Source of the DNA: Marinifilum flexuosum
Lineage (GTDB): Bacteria > Bacteroidota > Bacteroidia > Bacteroidales > Marinifilaceae
Reading direction: 5' to 3'
Assembly: GCF_003610555.1 (NCBI RefSeq)
Contig: NZ_RAPQ01000008.1
Span: 248,001 to 312,000, forward strand
Length of the DNA: 64,000 nucleotides
Below, piece after piece: positions 7,105 through 53,673 of the stretch. The first letter of the stretch is position 1. Each line of letters starts with the position of its first letter. A program made the translations under genes and the position numbers. A model generated the notes under the pieces. The model saw nothing but the letters and a program-made list of their open reading frames with translations. It ran no database searches and was not told where the DNA came from.

Positions 7105-7186
7105 GCCCAGGTGGCGGAATTGGTAGACGCGCTGGTCTCAAACACCAGTGGGGCAACCCGTGCCGGTTCGATCCCGGCCCTGGGTA
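7105..7186 (+). tRNA. tRNA-Leu (anticodon CAA)
   Basis: This is an 82-nt class II tRNA. The acceptor stem gcccagg pairs with cctgggt. The D arm contains attggtagac. The anticodon stem ctggt/accag encloses the loop ctcaaac, so the anticodon is CAA (reads UUG). A long variable arm follows, then the T arm gccggttcgatcccggc. The discriminator base is A and CCA is not encoded. Confidence 0.95.
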
Positions 7187-7190
7187 CTAA

Positions 7191-7228
7191 AAAAATCCTT
7201 TCGATGATATTCGGAAGGATTTTTTTTA
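7191..7228 (+). terminator. Terminator after tRNA-Leu
   Basis: An 11-pair stem (aatcctttcga with tcggaaggatt, one G-T pair) at 7194-7221 is followed by eight T. Confidence 0.85.
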
Positions 7229-7315
7229 TGCCATTTTCAATGTAAATGATCTTGGTCTAAAAATATGCGAATGGCAACCGCTTGTATATTTAAATTGGCT
7301 TGTAAGACGAAACTA

Positions 7316-8029
7316 TTATTCCCCGGTACTTGTTTCCTCCACTACACTTTCTGTTTCTTCTTCTTCGTTATGCGATGTTGATTTGCTTGAACCAAACAAA
7401 ACATAGTCATTATAGAATGCTTCGTTCTTGTGTTCCCATATTCTTTTTCCTACATCACAAAGTTCCGAAATCATCTTATAAAGTTCGCTACCCTTATTTA
7501 GGCGTTCTACGCTTTTTTGTTCGCGAATCGCTATGGCATCGGCCTGAGCATCTATGGCATCATCCAGTGCCTTGGTAGCGGTTTCGGCAGCGGTAAAATC
7601 CTCAATGGTTAAATTCCGCTTCGCCAATTCATCAGGCATTAACCTGGCGGTTTTAATTACATGCGATGCATAAGGAATTAACTCTTTATCGTTAAGTTTC
7701 TTTAAGCCAGTAAATCGAAACATTTTGTATTCTTTCGTATGCTCACCCAAAGCCAATTTCGATTTAAATGCAAACTCACCAAGAATTTCTACCAATTTGC
7801 CTTTGCAATTCTCTTTTTTGTTGGTGGCCAATACCTTTTGTCCTTCCCAAAACATATCCGATTCTACCTCTTTAAAGGCAAGACATTTTGCGGCAACCTC
7901 TTCGTGAACATTTTCGGCATAGCCATACTTTTGAAATTCTGTGATATCGCGCTGTACAACCATAGCAACTCTATCGGCACGTTGTATTAATTCAGGATAG
8001 CTTAAATTAATTGACTTATTTTCTTTCAT
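7316..8029 (-). CDS. Unrecognised helical cytoplasmic protein, acidic tail
   Basis: This 237-residue protein starts at the ATG at 8029 (MKENKSINLSYPELIQ). An upstream TTG at 8044 adds only five residues and is less likely. No signal peptide or membrane segment is visible. The sequence is mostly amphipathic helix, with Ala/Glu/Asp-rich stretches (TAAETATKALDDAIDAQADA) and a Ser/Thr/Glu tail (HNEEEETESVVEE). I recognise no domain. It stands alone between tRNA-Leu and the 21-bp repeat array. Codon use looks ordinary for the window. Confidence 0.7.
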   Translation of the reverse strand: MKENKSINLSYPELIQRADRVAMVVQRDITEFQKYGYAENVHEEVAAKCLAFKEVESDMFWEGQKVLATNKKENCKGKLVEILGEFAFKSKLALGEHTKEYKMFRFTGLKKLNDKELIPYASHVIKTARLMPDELAKRNLTIEDFTAAETATKALDDAIDAQADAIAIREQKSVERLNKGSELYKMISELCDVGKRIWEHKNEAFYNDYVLFGSSKSTSHNEEEETESVVEETSTGE

Positions 8030-8347
8030 AGTTTTAATTTTCAATTGTAATAGTATTGATTTTTTGAAAGTATTAAGTTATTAATAAAAACCAAATTAAA
8101 CAATTATGTAACGATTGTATGATTGATTAAGTTTTTGTGTCATTAAAACTTTGTGAAAATATTATAAAACTTAAAAGTGAAAAACTATCCTTTTGTAATG
8201 GTTTAATATGCTAGGGTTTAGTTTGAGTAAGAGTTTTGGTGTATTGAGTGGTTTTAATTGTTTGAATGTAGTTTTTAATGCGTTTTTGGTACATGCTAAG
8301 GCATAATTTAGTAGTTGTTTTGTATGTAATTATGAATATCAAATAAA

Positions 8348-8611
8348 ACCCCTTAGAAGTTGCCAATCCCGCCTTACGACCTGCCAACCCCGCCTTAGAA
8401 GTTGCCAATCCCGCCTTACGATCTGCCAACCCCGCCATAGAAGTTGCCAATCCCACCTTACGATCTGCCAACCCCGCCTTAGAAGTTGCCAATCCCACCT
8501 TACGATCTGCCAACCCCGCCTTAGGAGTTACCAAACTCGCCTTACGACCTGCCAACCTCGCCATAGATGTTGTTAAACCCGCCATACGAACTGCCAATCC
8601 CGCCATAGAAG
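8348..8611 (-). repeat. Left arm of the 21-bp array: twelve tandem units
   Basis: Twelve consecutive 21-bp units run from 8360 to 8611, preceded by a partial unit. Two variants alternate: one begins ttgccaatcccgcc and the next ctgccaaccccgcc, so there is a 42-bp higher-order period. The first eight units are nearly identical and the last four more worn. On the minus strand the frame stays open and reads a seven-residue repeat of the form GLADRKV/GLATSKA. There are no spacers, so it is not CRISPR-like. Whether the heptads are translated is unknown; the surrounding sequence does not look like a normal gene. Confidence 0.9.
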
Positions 8612-8624
8612 TTAATAAACCCGA

Positions 8625-8855
8625 CGGGAATGGCAACAAATAATACGGGATTGACAGAAAATAGGGCGGGGCCAGAAGTAAGTAAGTTGGCATTGGCAGT
8701 ATCTAAGCCAAAAGTGTAAGAAAATAACCCAAGAAGAGCAGAAAATACATAGGCGAGTTTAATTGGTAGGCCAAAAAGAACAATACCTAAGCCAAGGCTA
8801 GCAAAAAATAGTGCGGGAATATCAAGAAATAGGCTTGCAATGGCAGACAATAATG
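8625..8855 (+). repeat. Right arm of the 21-bp array: eleven decayed units in inverse orientation
   Basis: Cutting the sequence every 21 bases from 8625 gives eleven units (cgggaatggcaac..., cgggattgacag..., tggcattggcag...) that end exactly at 8855. Their consensus is the reverse complement of the left-arm unit, so the two arms face each other across the short palindrome cccgacggg at 8621-8629. Read on the plus strand, the arm gives a degenerate form of the same heptads (GLTENRA, ALAVSKP, RLAKNSA, AMADNNG) with several stops. It therefore looks like an older, decaying copy. Confidence 0.75.
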
Positions 8856-8877
8856 GAAAATTACTGAATGCAATATA

Positions 8878-8906
8878 ACCTGTCAGTTTTTTTTAACCTG
8901 ACAGGT
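8878..8906. repeat. Perfect 9-bp inverted repeat
   Basis: acctgtcag (8878-8886) and ctgacaggt (8898-8906) flank a T-rich loop. It sits just after the 21-bp array and before the TIM-barrel gene. It could be a terminator-like hairpin or an operator; no T run follows it on the plus strand. Confidence 0.6.
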
Positions 8907-8943
8907 ATTGTAAATTTATGAATTCTTCCTTCCATATAAATTC

Positions 8944-8972
8944 TTTGGAAATGAATGGATCAAGTATATTTG
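8944..8972 (+). promoter_or_regulatory. Promoter of the TIM-barrel gene
   Basis: TTTG at 8944-8947, 17 bases, then TATATTTG at 8965-8972. Its place inside the upstream extension of the frame shows that the ATG at 8918 is not used. Confidence 0.6.
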
Positions 8973-9016
8973 CACTCATTAAAACACACAACACTAATAC
9001 TAACAATAAACAATTG

Positions 9017-9703
9017 ATGAGAGAGATGAGCATAGATCTTATATTCATGCTAACCAGGGATGATAAAACAGTACAAGATGCCAGACAGTATGTGAAGGAA
9101 ATTGTGGCAGAGGGCGTAAAACATATCGGTTTTAAGGATGTGGGTTTGCCTTTTGAAGATCTGAAAGAATTAACACAGGATTTGAGGCAGGCAGGAGTAA
9201 CGGTTTATTTGGAAGTGGTAAGTTTAGATTCGGAGAGCGAAATTAACTCAGCAAAGGTGGCAATGGATTTAAATGTAGATTACCTGTTGGGAGGCACAAG
9301 ACCAGAGTTAATTGCACCTTTGGTGAAAGATCATTCATTAAAATATTATCCTTTTGTAGGTCGCGTTGAAGATCACCCAAGTATTTTGAAGGGAAGTATT
9401 ACTGAAATAGCTACACAAGCCGAAGAAATAACCAGTCTTGATGGTGTAGATGGTTTGGATTTATTGGCTTACCGCCACGTAGAGGAAGATATTCCAAGCT
9501 TAATTAAAGAAGTATGTAAACTATCAAAAAAGCCGATAATTGTAGCTGGCAGTATTGATAGTGTATCGAGGATAGAAGCAGTTAAAGCTACCAAGGCTGC
9601 TGCCTTTACAGTTGGAACGGCAGCCTTTGAACGATCATTCCCTGCCAACAGATCAGGGGTTGGAGGACAGGTTGAATGTATTCTAAAAACTTGTGCAAGT
9701 TAA
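9017..9703 (+). CDS. Putative TIM-barrel enzyme (HisA/phosphate-binding barrel type)
   Basis: The frame reaches back to 8918, but a promoter at 8944-8972 places the start at the ATG at 9017 or the one at 9026, giving about 228 residues. The order of strands (IDLIFMLTR, VKHIGFKD, VTVYLEVV, DYLLGG, KYYPFVGR, GLDLLAYR, KPIIVAGSI, AAFTVGTA) fits a (beta/alpha)8 barrel. The late GSI and GTA segments lie where barrels of the HisA/HisF kind bind phosphate. No catalytic motif is clear enough to name a substrate. There is no signal peptide and no linked pathway gene. The two small-RNA genes lie just downstream. Confidence 0.65.
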   Translation: MREMSIDLIFMLTRDDKTVQDARQYVKEIVAEGVKHIGFKDVGLPFEDLKELTQDLRQAGVTVYLEVVSLDSESEINSAKVAMDLNVDYLLGGTRPELIAPLVKDHSLKYYPFVGRVEDHPSILKGSITEIATQAEEITSLDGVDGLDLLAYRHVEEDIPSLIKEVCKLSKKPIIVAGSIDSVSRIEAVKATKAAAFTVGTAAFERSFPANRSGVGGQVECILKTCAS

Positions 9704-9966: not shown

Positions 9967-10053
9967 GAGAAAACAAACAAGTAGTTTCTCTTAGATTTAG
10001 GTTAGTAAATAGTGGTTAGTAAAGAAAGCTTAGGGTGGTGCCTAAGCTTTTTT
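9967..10053 (+). ncRNA. Small RNA, family copy B
   Basis: The transcript is about 87 nt. The -7 box is poorer (TACTTTTA at 9954-9961). The 29-nt core at 9991-10019 is identical, base for base, to copies C, D and E on the other strand 43 kb away, although the flanks differ. The core contains GGTTAG twice and should be largely unpaired. The terminator is a nine-pair stem aagcttagg/cctaagctt (10026-10049) with a T run. Confidence 0.7.
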
Positions 10054-38700: not shown

Positions 38701-41700
38701 GCAGCAAGTGGTTATCCTGTTAGCGTAGATTATGTGGTTCAGGGGACAAGTACAGCTACAGGATCTGGTACTGATTATACTTTAGCCAATGGAACATTAA
38801 GTTTTGCAGAAGGCGAAACCAGTAAAAATATTAGTATCTCAGATATCATTGATGATACATTAGACGAGGAAGATGAAACGATTGAAGTTATCTTAACCAA
38901 TCCAAATAATGCAAGTTTAGGAACAAAACAAACGCATACATACACTATTTTAGATAATGATGATCCCCCAACGGTAAGTTTTACTACTGAATCACAGGTA
39001 AGCTCAAATGAATCAGGAACCATGCAAATTACCGCAGAATTATCCGAAATAAGTGGAAGAGATGTAAGTGTAGATTTTTCAGTAAATGAAACAAGTACAG
39101 CATCTAGAGGAGGGATAGATTATAGCATTGAAAATAGCCCTCTAAATTTTGCAGCAGGAAGCACATCGGCTGATATTACGATTGCAATATCAATGGATAT
39201 GCTGGATGAATCAGATGAAACTGTGATAGTAGATATGGTGAATTTAACGAATGCAACCCAGGGAACAATTCAATCTCACACAGTAAGTATTAAGGACGAT
39301 GATCATACACCGATAATTACCGCAAATCAAACTTTCGATATTGATGAAAATAAAGATAATAATGTAGTTATTGGAACAGTTTTGGCTTCTGATGAAGATG
39401 CTGGAACTTCTTTTTCACAATGGTTAATTGTTGGTGGCAATGATGATGGCATTTTTACGATTAATACGACATCTGGAGTAATTAGTATTGCAGACAACAC
39501 GAATCTTGATTTTGAGCGAACGGAATCATATGCACTTTCTATAACAGTAAGTGATGGCGTAAATACTAGTTTGCCAGAAAATGTTAGGATCGATATCAAT
39601 GATTTGAATGACAATATTCCAGTTGTTACTGCAAGTCAAACTTTCGATGTTGATGAAAACAAAGATAACAATGCAGTTGTTGGAACAGTTTTGGCTTCCG
39701 ATTTAGATGCTGGAACTTCTTTTTCGCAATGGTTAATTGTTAGTGGTAATGATGATGGCATTTTTGCGATTAATACAACATCCGGAGAAATCAGTATTGC
39801 AGACAACACGAATCTTGATTTTGAACAAACGGAATCTTATACTCTTTCTATAACAGTAAGTGATGGTTCGAATACCAGTCTGGCTGAGAATGTCAGGATC
39901 GATATCAATGATTTGAATGACAATATTCCAGTTGTTACTGCAAATCAAACTTTCAATGTAGATGAAAACAAAGCTAATAATACAATTATTGGAACAGTAA
40001 TAGCAACAGATAATGACGCCGGTACAAGTTTCTCTGCATGGAAAATTACAGCTGGAAACACAGATGGTATATTTGAGCTTAATGCTTCTTCCGGAGAAAT
40101 CAGTATTGCTGACAATACGAATCTGGATTATGAAACCACAACCAGTTATACATTAAGCTTAACGGTAAGCGATGGAACAAATATTAGTGCCTCAGAAACC
40201 ATAAATATTGATGTGAATCCAATCAATGATATTACACCAGTAATAACATGTTGTCAAGGCTTTAATTTAGTTGAAAATGTTGATAATGGTACCAAAGTGG
40301 GTACGGTTTCAGTTTCTGATGCCGATACTGGTGATGATGAATTCTATACTGATTGGACTATAGTTTCAGGAAATGAGGATGGTATATTTAAAATTGATGA
40401 GAATTCAGGGGAAATTACGGTTTTTGATAATACCTACCTGGATTATGAACGAGATGGGAGTCATAACCTAATTTTAACAGTAAGTGATGGATTACATACG
40501 AGTGCAGAGGAAAATGTACAGATTCAGATGTATGATGAAAACGATAATGCTCCTGTAATTGCAAATGGACAGTCATTTAATGTGGACGAAAATGCTTCCA
40601 ATTCAACAAGTGTAGGAACAGTAAGTGCAACAGATGCTGATTTGAATACTCATTACACAGACTGGACAATTACCGGAGGGAATACAGATGGCATTTTTGC
40701 GATTAATGCAGCATCCGGAGAAATCAGTATTGCAGACAATACGAATCTTGATTTTGAACAAACGGAATCATATACACTTTCTATAACAGTAAGCGATGGT
40801 TCGAATACCAGTCTGGCTGAGAATGTCAGGATCGATATCAATGATTTGAATGACAATATTCCAGTTATAGTGGCAAATCAAACTTTCAATGTAGATGAAA
40901 ACAAAGCTAATAATACAATTATTGGAACAGTAATGGCAACAGATAATGACGCCGGTACAAGTTTCTCTGCATGGAAAATTACAGCTGGAAACACAGATGG
41001 TATATTTGAGCTTAATGCTTCTTCCGGAGAAATCAGTATTGCTGACAATACGAATTTGGATTTTGAAACTACTACCAGCTATGCATTAAGTATTACAGTT
41101 AGTGATGGCATAAATACCAGTCTTGCTGAAAATATTAGAGTTAAGATCAATGACTTGAATGATAATATTCCTGTTGTTACTGCAGGACAAAATTTTGGTG
41201 TAGATGAAAACTCAGCAAACAATACTGCAGTTGGAATAGTTTTAGCCACAGATGCAGATGCACAAAGCACATTTTCGCAATGGACAATTGTCGATGGTAA
41301 TGAAGATAGTATTTTTACTATTGATGCTGTAACCGGAGAGATCAGTATTGCTGATAATTCCAATTTGGATTTTGAGAAAACAGCATCGTTTACACTTTTA
41401 GTGACTGTTAGTGATGGATTGAATATCAGTACTGCTGAGAGCTTGATAATAAGTTTAAATGATATAAATGACGTTCAGCCAGTAATTACTCCTGCACAAG
41501 TATACCATATTGCAGAAAATTCTGAGCAAGGAGTTGTAGTTGCTACAATAGATGCTACAGATGGAGATGTAAATCCTTCTAATTTTACATTTGCATGGAG
41601 CAGTAATGATGGAAATATTAATTCTGCCTTTGTTTTAGAACCATCAACAGGTAAAATTAAAATCAATAAGGAAGGTGCTATTGATAGGGAACAATTTGAA

Positions 41701-52427: not shown

Positions 52428-52505
52428 AGCTTAGTTTGTTTATTTAAATTCATTACAAATAAAGATTAAAAAGTCTTTTTTTCAAAATGGGAGCTTGAAT
52501 TTATC

Positions 52506-52944
52506 CCAAAGAAAAATCCCGAACTTCGTTAAGTCCGGGATTTTCTCTAACCACTATTTACTAACCTAAATCTAATCTATGAAAAAACTTCTCTGTTTTG
52601 TACATTACAAATGTAGGGTAGAAGTGTGCTAAATGGTTTGAATAAAAGTTAATGAAACTTAAAAGAGATGAGAATATTGTGATTCAGACTGCGGTGCTCT
52701 GCACCTAATTAAAAATACAATTGTATAGTTCTATAAATACTGCGCAGCTCTGCTGCTTTACCAGTAAAATGTTTAGGTACGGAGTACCGGAGTATTTGTA
52801 GAAAATTAGAATAAGTGGGAATGAGGTACAGGGTACCGTGGTGTTTAAATTGTATGAATACCTTGGTTTGAAATCCGAGCCAAAGACTAAATACAGCACG
52901 GACTATTTCCATTTGCTCTGCTTTAGATTAGGGCAGAATATATT
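52506..52944. repeat. 438-bp tandem unit 1
   Basis: This first of three tandem units covers 52506-52944; the period to the next is 439 bases. It contains small RNA C (minus strand) and a complete four-hairpin element at 52693-52837 (ggtgc-tct-gcacc, gcagc-tct-gctgc, ggtac-gga-gtacc, ggtac-agg-gtacc). Confidence 0.9.
52508..52602 (-). ncRNA. Small RNA, family copy C
   Basis: The -7 box TACATTTG lies on the minus strand at plus 52608-52615, part of a 15-bp dyad (tacatt-aca-aatgta). The transcript of about 95 nt passes the 29-nt core (plus 52547-52575, identical to copy B). It ends in the stem aatcccg-actt/aagt-cgggatt (52515-52542), followed by a T run. No coding frame is seen. Confidence 0.75.
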
Positions 52945-53382
52945 CCAAAGAAAAATCCCGGACTTGCAAGTCCGGGATTTTCTCTAACCACTATTTACTA
53001 ACCTAAATCTAATTCTATGAAAAAACATCTCTGTTTTGTACATTACAAATGTAGGGTAGAAGTGTGCTAAATGGTTTAAACAAAAGTTAATGAAGCTTAA
53101 AAGAGATGAGAATATTGTGATTCAGACTGCGGTGCTCTGCACCTAATTAAAAATACAATTGTATAGTTCTATAAATACTGCGAAGCTCTGCTGCTTTACC
53201 AGTAAAATGTTTAGGTACGGAGTACCGGAGTATTTGTAGAAAATTAGAATAAGTGGGAATGAGGTACAGGGTACCGTGGTGTTTAAATTGTATGAATACC
53301 TTGGTTTGAAATCCGAGTTGAAGACTAAATACAGCACGGACTATTTCCATTTGCTCTGCTTTAGATTAGGACAGAATATATT
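52945..53382. repeat. 438-bp tandem unit 2
   Basis: Nearly identical to unit 1 along its whole length. The four hairpins are at 53131-53143, 53182-53194 (the first stem is changed to gaagc), 53214-53226 and 53263-53275. It contains small RNA D. Confidence 0.9.
52947..53040 (-). ncRNA. Small RNA, family copy D
   Basis: Same layout as copy C: -7 box at plus 53046-53053, 29-nt core at 52984-53012, and a perfect 12-pair terminator stem at 52954-52979 followed by T on the minus strand. Confidence 0.75.
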
Positions 53383-53384
53383 CC

Positions 53385-53479
53385 AAAGAAAAATCCCGAA
53401 CTTGCAAGTCCGGGATTTTCTCTAACCACTATTTACTAACCTAAATCTAATTCTATGAAAAAAACATCTCTGTTTTGTA
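53385..53479 (-). ncRNA. Small RNA, family copy E
   Basis: Same layout: -7 box at plus 53485-53492, 29-nt core at 53422-53450, and terminator stem at 53392-53417. It differs from D mainly by one added A in the poly-A tract and one change in the terminator. Confidence 0.75.
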
Positions 53480-53673
53480 CATTACAAATGTAGGGTAGAA
53501 GTGTGCTAAATGGTTTAAATAAAAGTTAATGAAGCTTAAAAATGTTGAGATTGATATTACGGTGCGCTGCACCTTGATTAAATTTCTAATGTGTAGTTCT
53601 ATAAATATTTCGCAGCTCTGCTGCTTTATTTTTCCAAAGGAGTTAGGTGCCGTGCATTTTGGAATTTATAGAT

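Follow-up and report, generated by a model that had tools for sequence, protein, structure and literature searches.

Layout of the locus

The window, which is the whole 64,000-nucleotide stretch of DNA analysed, belongs to a genome of Marinifilum (Bacteroidia). A tRNA-Leu gene (7105-7186), the only feature of the window to reach the Rfam gathering score, and a gene of 242 aa with no Pfam match lie to the left of the locus, and a further gene occupies 9029-9700 on its right. The element discussed here is an array of short repeats in a gap between divergent genes. It comprises 23 units in an exact 21-bp register, arranged in two arms that both read outward from a short palindrome (Table 1); unit, register and paired arms are all directly observed.

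Table 1. Positions and strands of the repeat element and associated features
Feature	Position	Strand	Remarks
Left arm	8351..8613	- (outward strand)	12 full 21-bp units (8360-8611) in 42-bp dimers
Central palindrome CCCGACGGG	8620..8628	none	Similar centre AAACCCGAAGGGTTT in the second copy of the genome
Right arm	8627..8857	+ (outward strand)	11 degenerate 21-bp units
Frame P0001 (160 aa)	8211..8693	-	Crosses the left arm; considered to result from the repeat rather than to be a gene
Synteny break	8872..8919	none	G039 and M. fragile match the DNA leftward and have other DNA rightward
Second copy	G000:C2:726025-726555		Non-syntenic, layout as in the window; both arms carry the window's outward unit

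The outward consensus of the left arm, on the minus strand, is approximately GGRTTGGCAnnTCnTAAGGCG. Identity at lag 21 in this arm is 0.697, compared with 0.279 (sd 0.028) in shuffled sequences, and it rises to 0.89 at lag 42; TRF reports 11.6 copies of 21 and 6.3 copies of 42, and the arm is better described as a row of 42-bp dimers. The right arm is more worn, with a lag-21 identity of 0.50 against 0.294 (sd 0.029), a value reached by none of 5000 shuffles. When the left-arm weight matrix is laid outward on the right arm, one register fits (score -8.2), the next best scoring -28.8; shuffle maxima average -30.0 and 0/1000 shuffles attain the observed score. This single-register fit indicates that the arms share one unit in opposite orientation, without insertions or deletions. 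The inward reading also exceeds shuffles, by far less (-24.8 vs -33.0), as is expected wherever the unit of a 21-bp array is partly self-complementary; here at best 10 of the 21 bases are self-complementary. The first-pass annotation had described 12 and 11 units in opposed orientation that meet at a small palindrome and keep an exact 21-base register in both arms. Lag identity, TRF and matrix fit confirm this description, the right arm being fitted at one register, and its coordinates were correct within a few bases.

As a hairpin, the short centre CCCGACGGG is weak (-1.2 kcal/mol), and a 47-nt fold around it leaves the palindrome unused and does not surpass shuffled sequences (-2.8, z -0.74). 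Folded as RNA, the whole element is more stable than shuffles (z -3.2), and pairing between the two arms scores -100, compared with -69 +- 8 when the right arm is shuffled (60 shuffles). Over 8000-9100, 3 promoter-like sequences were found where 4.0 are expected, and no terminator-like sequence where 0.9 are expected. To the left of the left arm, one scan scored a match to the reverse-oriented unit in a G-rich stretch (8208-8312), which may represent another degenerate part of the element or a chance likeness.

Two familiar kinds of array were also considered. CRISPR arrays have unique spacers between their repeats, and this assignment was rejected because the units stand head-to-tail without spacers. 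Plasmid iterons are direct repeats of ~20 bp next to a replication initiator gene; the contig of the window measures 2.4 Mb, and a Pfam scan of five frames identified none as a replication initiator.

Coding capacity of the arms

Heptads of the form GLA-x-[RNS]-[KR]-[AP] can be read on the outward strand of both arms. The annotation of the window had noted this common heptad type, with stops in the worn arm, and had proposed either DNA shape or a peptide as the selected feature. The heptads are indeed present, as are two stops in the right arm of the window. A protein-coding heptad repeat on both outward strands, decaying or active, which would form a coiled or beta-repeat peptide, would agree with the frame that stays open for 160 aa across the left arm, with the left arms of G039 and M. 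fragile, which have no stop, and with the identical heptad type in both arms and in the second copy. Any 21-bp unit without a stop is, however, open by construction, and codon-position tests, stop tests and Pfam, on which the noncoding verdict is based, all point away from a protein.

In four of the five arms examined, codon position 3 is the most informative: mean information at positions 1/2/3 is 1.51/1.29/1.63 in the left and 0.84/0.63/1.14 in the right arm of the window, 0.96/0.98/1.15 in the left arm of the second copy and 1.13/1.21/1.43 in the left arm of G039, the exception being the right arm of the second copy (0.66/0.78/0.70). Moreover, all nine distinct sites that changed between the right arm of the window and its two orthologues fall at codon positions 1 or 2 (0.026 by chance), the right arms contain stops, and P0001 has no Pfam match. 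The most invariant bases are the CA and TA within GGCAnnTCnTAAG, which constitute a DNA pattern. Judged from these sequences, the heptad is not selected as a protein, and a coding origin is highly improbable; of the two features proposed, selection at the level of the DNA may still apply, and a selected peptide is not supported.

Distribution and change among Marinifilum species

The element is present in three of five Marinifilum genomes, namely that of the window (G000), G036, which is probably M. fragile, and G039. With a strict pattern it was detected in one of 56 genomes of the family and with a DNA search in three, all of one genus, a count made after dropping chance matches. These were in G014, G032 and G052 and were rejected, there being no 21-bp array at those places. 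The search of related genomes for the unit, as suggested from the sequence of the window, has thus found it in congeners only. A pattern scan of a genome collection returned M. fragile JCM 15579 (L021), which is placed in Marinifilaceae (Bacteroidia), and one match in an unrelated genome; the latter, a Kerfeldbacteria locus (L020), was rejected as a single match only. No match was found in the phages and plasmids searched, nor was the centre pattern matched in viral contigs.

On the left, the tRNA-Leu side with the 242-aa gene is syntenic in M. fragile and G039, and relatives of the gene at 9029-9700 are located elsewhere in both. The total length of the element in G039 equals that in the window, and in M. 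fragile it is 84 bp (4 units) shorter. This amounts to 2 x 42 and, as a comparison between species, agrees with the length steps of 21 or 42 put forward for testing; the homologous loci likewise keep the 21-bp register, the loss of which had been named as the finding that would speak against a wider meaning. The proximal dimer GLADRKP-xLLTSKA, in the outward reading of the left arm, has three copies in G039, one in M. fragile and none in the window, where the left arm has instead amplified distal dimers of the GLADRKV-GLATSKA type. The 42-bp dimers amplified hence differ from lineage to lineage, and these differing dimer counts indicate that units of the left arm are gained and lost in pairs, in directly observed steps of 42 bp.

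The left arm differs by 15-17% between species. The worn right arm shows no gain or loss of units among the three species, with 7 and 4 changes in 221 bp (3.2 and 1.8%). For comparison, the intergenic stretch left of the arm (8045-8345) differs at 15/301 and 12/300 sites (4-5%), the left gene at 18 and 27 of 729, and the stretch 7190-7315 at 0/126 sites relative to G039, with just 37 bases aligned in M. fragile. The right arm may be evolving slightly more slowly than the stretch to its left, a hint of constraint drawn from small numbers.

The second copy and the question of mobility

The genome has two dispersed copies of the element, which are ~65% alike over their matched part. The second is flanked by two genes whose sequences, on inspection by eye, suggest an amylase and a response regulator of the LytTR type. 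Its centre AAACCCGAAGGGTTT forms a perfect 7-bp stem (-6.1), and its arms pair at -147, compared with -85 +- 7 with a shuffled right arm (60 shuffles). Pairing above chance in both copies implies that each can form a long imperfect hairpin. The site is empty in G036 and G039, where the flanking genes adjoin, and the additional DNA in the genome of the window measures ~680 bp; the ends of the window copy are not definable from an empty site. G038 is uninformative at both sites: the left gene is missing there, and its amylase-like gene adjoins different DNA.

The similar centre of the second copy, together with the empty site in two congeners, is what would be seen if a MITE-like or REPIN-like mobile element carried the minisatellite and the two-arm unit had moved as a whole, perhaps by means of a Y1 (IS200/IS605-type) transposase. 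A minisatellite inside a MITE has been described in Porphyromonas under the name BrickBuilt (PMC4596501, drawn on in part). Six Y1_Tnp loci in the genome exceed the cut-off, and at two of them a strong 21-bp array lies no more than 1.5 kb away; with 5 such arrays in 800 kb, the expected number is 0.12. However, this association is post hoc, ordinary genes intervene, one of the five background arrays is the very one near a Y1 gene, and no Y1 gene is near either copy of the element. The copies are, moreover, just ~65% alike. The ends of the ~680-bp insert are not linked by an inverted repeat of at least 10 bases, and the second copy shows no clean target duplication, although its two sides can be aligned over 9-13 A/T-rich bases.

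The flanks of the second site also weigh against transposition. Between the genome of the window and G039, the regulator side differs by 8-26% per 130-bp step, mostly by about a quarter, and the amylase side by 1-17%. By contrast, BLAST puts G036 and G039 at 93.7% identity over 3.8 kb at this site; for the regulator side, the comparison with G039 and this BLAST figure are the ones used. High divergence of the flank next to the likeness of the two congeners suggests that the second copy may have arrived within a recombined segment rather than by transposition. All in all, a mobile element is an unlikely account of the two copies. The two Y1 loci with a strong 21-bp array at most 1.5 kb downstream are L219 / L122:3163-4890 (G000:C2) and L220:1501-3153 (G000:C3), and the units of those arrays differ from that of the window.

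Other arrays in the genome and in other Bacteroidia

Besides the window and L030, arrays of 21 bp with other units occur in the same genome at L122, L111, L220, L105, L103 and L088 (the last with period 42). By eye, the units are TTGGCTAAGGCCGACAAGTGA in L122, ACTTTCGAAGTCGGAATGCCT in L111 and AAATACAAGTCTACTGAATTA in L220. The first has GATTGGC and TAAGGC in common with the unit of the window, at a different spacing, and may be distantly related to it.

With regard to the inverted form, 23 arrays (22 loci, two of them Marinifilum) were compared, and opposed arms side by side appear in the two Marinifilum copies only; in the others the reverse match is absent or mostly overlaps the forward array, and in L049 a small one lies at the edge of the array. 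Among 19 seeds from the samples, four loci (L103, L122, L183 and L208) have reverse matches well past the forward array. For L122 the inverted arm is supported, with the outward reading of the right arm reached by 0/500 shuffles and the inward reading at P 0.40, and the centre CATTCCG...CGGAATG has a 7-bp stem; its arms pair no better than chance (-51 vs -48 +- 7). In L183 (G048) the repeat listing gives inverted arms about a spacer of ~130 nt, with the outward direction favoured (16.6 vs -8.9) and both matrix directions above shuffles. Inverted arms are also found by inverted-repeat listing in L208, their direction being ambiguous by matrix (5.4 vs 4.3), and an inverted form of L103 is not supported (P 0.20 and 0.33). 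The loci cited for a recurring inverted layout are the window with L030 and L122 in the same genome, and L208 and L183 in other genomes. Taken together, these tests suggest that the inverted form seems to be recurrent, yet in the minority. At L208:14330-14610 (G349), the 22-bp arrays, which contain the word TCATTGCGAGG, have their inverted arms about a hairpin of -42.8 kcal/mol.

A 21-bp period can be observed directly in the sampled intergenic DNA at large. The sample from the genome of the window covered 864 kb, being the window and 40 sampled stretches, of which 100.7 kb remained after masking stop-to-stop frames of at least 100 aa and the two elements. When period 21 was scored with its harmonics 42 and 63 among 25 periods (16-40), it ranked first of the 25 with a z of 7.2 relative to the other periods. 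It also ranked first of 25 in G034 and G048 (same family; z 3.8 and 4.6), in G250 (same order; z 7.5) and in G349 (same class; z 4.4), and the bootstrap intervals of the five sampled Bacteroidia all lie above zero. In E. coli MG1655 (400 kb sampled), the one control genome outside Bacteroidota, the period ranks 19/25. In the two halves of the own sample, lags 21, 42 and 63 rank 1, 2 and 4 and 1, 2 and 3 of 96, respectively. With the strong arrays masked, period 21 is still first in four of the five Bacteroidia samples, the exception being G034, where it drops to sixth place. A scoring of single lags with other detrending is less uniform than the harmonic scoring: lag 21 is first in the genome of the window and in G048, second after lag 5 in G034, third after 42 and 41 in G250, and third after 22 and 11 in G349. 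In coding DNA the excess of lag 21 over its neighbours is 0.0009 in the genome of the window, 0.0048 in G250, 0.0025 in G349 and 0.0023 in E. coli, a control that is not clean because stop-free arrays count as coding.

Lag 7 exceeds a z of 2 in intergenic DNA of three of the five Bacteroidia samples (that of the window, G250 and G349). Some 21-bp arrays appear to be made of 7-bp sub-units such as AAAGCTA, GAATTAG and TATCAGT (L183:4444-4770 in G048, L137:5548, L175:8149 and L112:14518). When the translated left arm was used as a query at E 1e-4, matches were obtained in 14 of the 295 genomes searched in the order and in 4 of 198 in the phylum, the genome of the window being counted in each; TRF on 25 of the 29 places in the order (two of them in that genome) returned a period of 21, 42 or another multiple of 21 in all 25, although a heptad query is biased toward multiples of 21 and some of those places lie in long frames. 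Sorted by gap type, arrays occur in 4/147 divergent, 26/362 tandem and 9/101 convergent gaps (Fisher P 0.034, divergent vs the rest), which is a lead only, since genes were taken as crude open frames and the second copy was miscalled.

These data bear on the simplest explanation, that the element is a private minisatellite without wider meaning, which arose by a chance tandem duplication and measures 21 bp by accident. The narrow range of the unit sequence, found in only 3/56 family genomes and all in one genus, agrees with such an origin. Nevertheless, units of this length but different sequence are present elsewhere in the genome, and the length is prominent in the intergenic DNA of four other Bacteroidia; we regard a purely private origin as very unlikely.

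Comparison with known systems

In Bacillus and other groups, repeats of 20-21 nt with constant size and variable sequence, generally noncoding, have been described by Subirana and Messeguer (2021, PMC8161180, drawn on in part). These authors note that the length equals two turns of the helix and suggest a polymerising DNA-binding protein with a possible role in the nucleoid. The present element resembles those repeats in its unit length, in the occurrence of several families per genome, in a sequence bound to the species and in being mostly noncoding; the parts of that paper used here do not refer to a pair of inverted arms flanking a palindrome, or to a 21-bp period of bulk intergenic DNA in Bacteroidia (PMC8161180). 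For its part, the element has a constant unit of 20-22 nt, is noncoding, belongs to one of several families and has a sequence limited to close relatives. Reportedly, Subirana and Messeguer also obtained a 22/44/52-nt result in 2020. A literature search, with subscription journals mostly outside its cover, found no paper devoted to inverted twin arrays or to intergenic arrays of 21 bp from Bacteroidia. The view in the first-pass annotation that no named element is like this one needs amending to that extent: constant-length repeats of 20-21 nt had been described, and for the inverted two-arm form no published description was found, as far as the sources drawn on in part allow (PMC8161180).

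The nearest minisatellite of Bacteroidia found in that search is BrickBuilt of Porphyromonas gingivalis, a minisatellite MITE with a 23-nt unit, a leader and a tail with small inverted-repeat ends, and 19 copies (PMC4596501, in the part consulted). Both are intergenic, imperfect minisatellites with dispersed copies and variable copy number (PMC4596501). Unlike BrickBuilt, the element has a 21-nt unit, two opposed arms and 2 copies, which are dispersed, and inverted-repeat ends were not found on the insert of the second copy. An array elsewhere in the genome, L102:6217-6350 (G000:C3), between two convergent open frames, consists of 23-bp units in 46-bp dimers; its pitch is that of BrickBuilt.

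REPINs and BIMEs, known together with REP-associated tyrosine transposases (PMC3733652, in part), share with the element that they are intergenic inverted repeats able to form a hairpin, and genes of Y1-type transposases exist in this genome. In contrast, REPs are palindromic and high-copy, while the unit here is self-complementary over less than half its length and occurs in two copies (PMC3733652). None of the six Y1_Tnp loci is near either copy of the element, and no Y1 transposase flanked by the repeat was found.

Proposed origin and maintenance of the array

The element is probably a non-coding intergenic satellite, one of a population with a pitch of ~21 bp and varied sequences in its own and four other sampled Bacteroidia genomes. 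The reading that fits best is an inverted form of the satellites reported by Subirana and Messeguer. Its length would change by replication slippage or by unequal recombination between like units, in steps of 42 bp because two unit types alternate. At the small palindrome, a fold-back or a switch of template could have produced the inverted form and with it the long imperfect hairpin, after which one arm alone would have gone on turning over. The least certain step concerns the pitch. It would be kept at 21 bp because two helical turns leave successive copies on one face of the helix, whether this serves a phased DNA-binding or nucleoid protein or follows from a duplication process that itself proceeds in whole turns. 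Near-neutral persistence is compatible with all the data.

A broader proposal, possible if doubtful, is that Bacteroidia keep genome-wide intergenic arrays which share a pitch of two helical turns, a subset of them as twin outward arms about a hairpin-prone centre, and this would point to an unrecognised process that acts on intergenic DNA throughout the class, such as hairpin-initiated, helix-phased growth of repeats or a phased polymer of a DNA-binding protein. If a 21-bp pitch without conservation of sequence is indeed class-wide, the length of the repeat would be selected or made independently of its sequence. The puzzle of bacterial satellites could then be tested in another phylum, by asking whether a DNA-binding protein, helical phasing during replication slippage or a mobile enzyme determines the length, and the arrays would serve as natural strain markers with steps of 21/42 bp.

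Other repeats in the window

An identical 26-base word occurs four times in the window, once on the plus strand (9994-10019) and three times on the minus strand (52547-52572, 52984-53009 and 53422-53447). The last three lie inside a 438-bp tandem repeat of 2.4 copies (52497-53541), and the three tandem copies resemble, below the gathering score (E 0.0006, 0.0008 and 0.13), the Rfam family FopS, a Bacteroidetes family of paralogous sRNAs. The region is possibly a tandemly amplified sRNA family. Tandem repeats of 309 bp in about six copies (39317-41253) are possibly part of a repeat protein gene.
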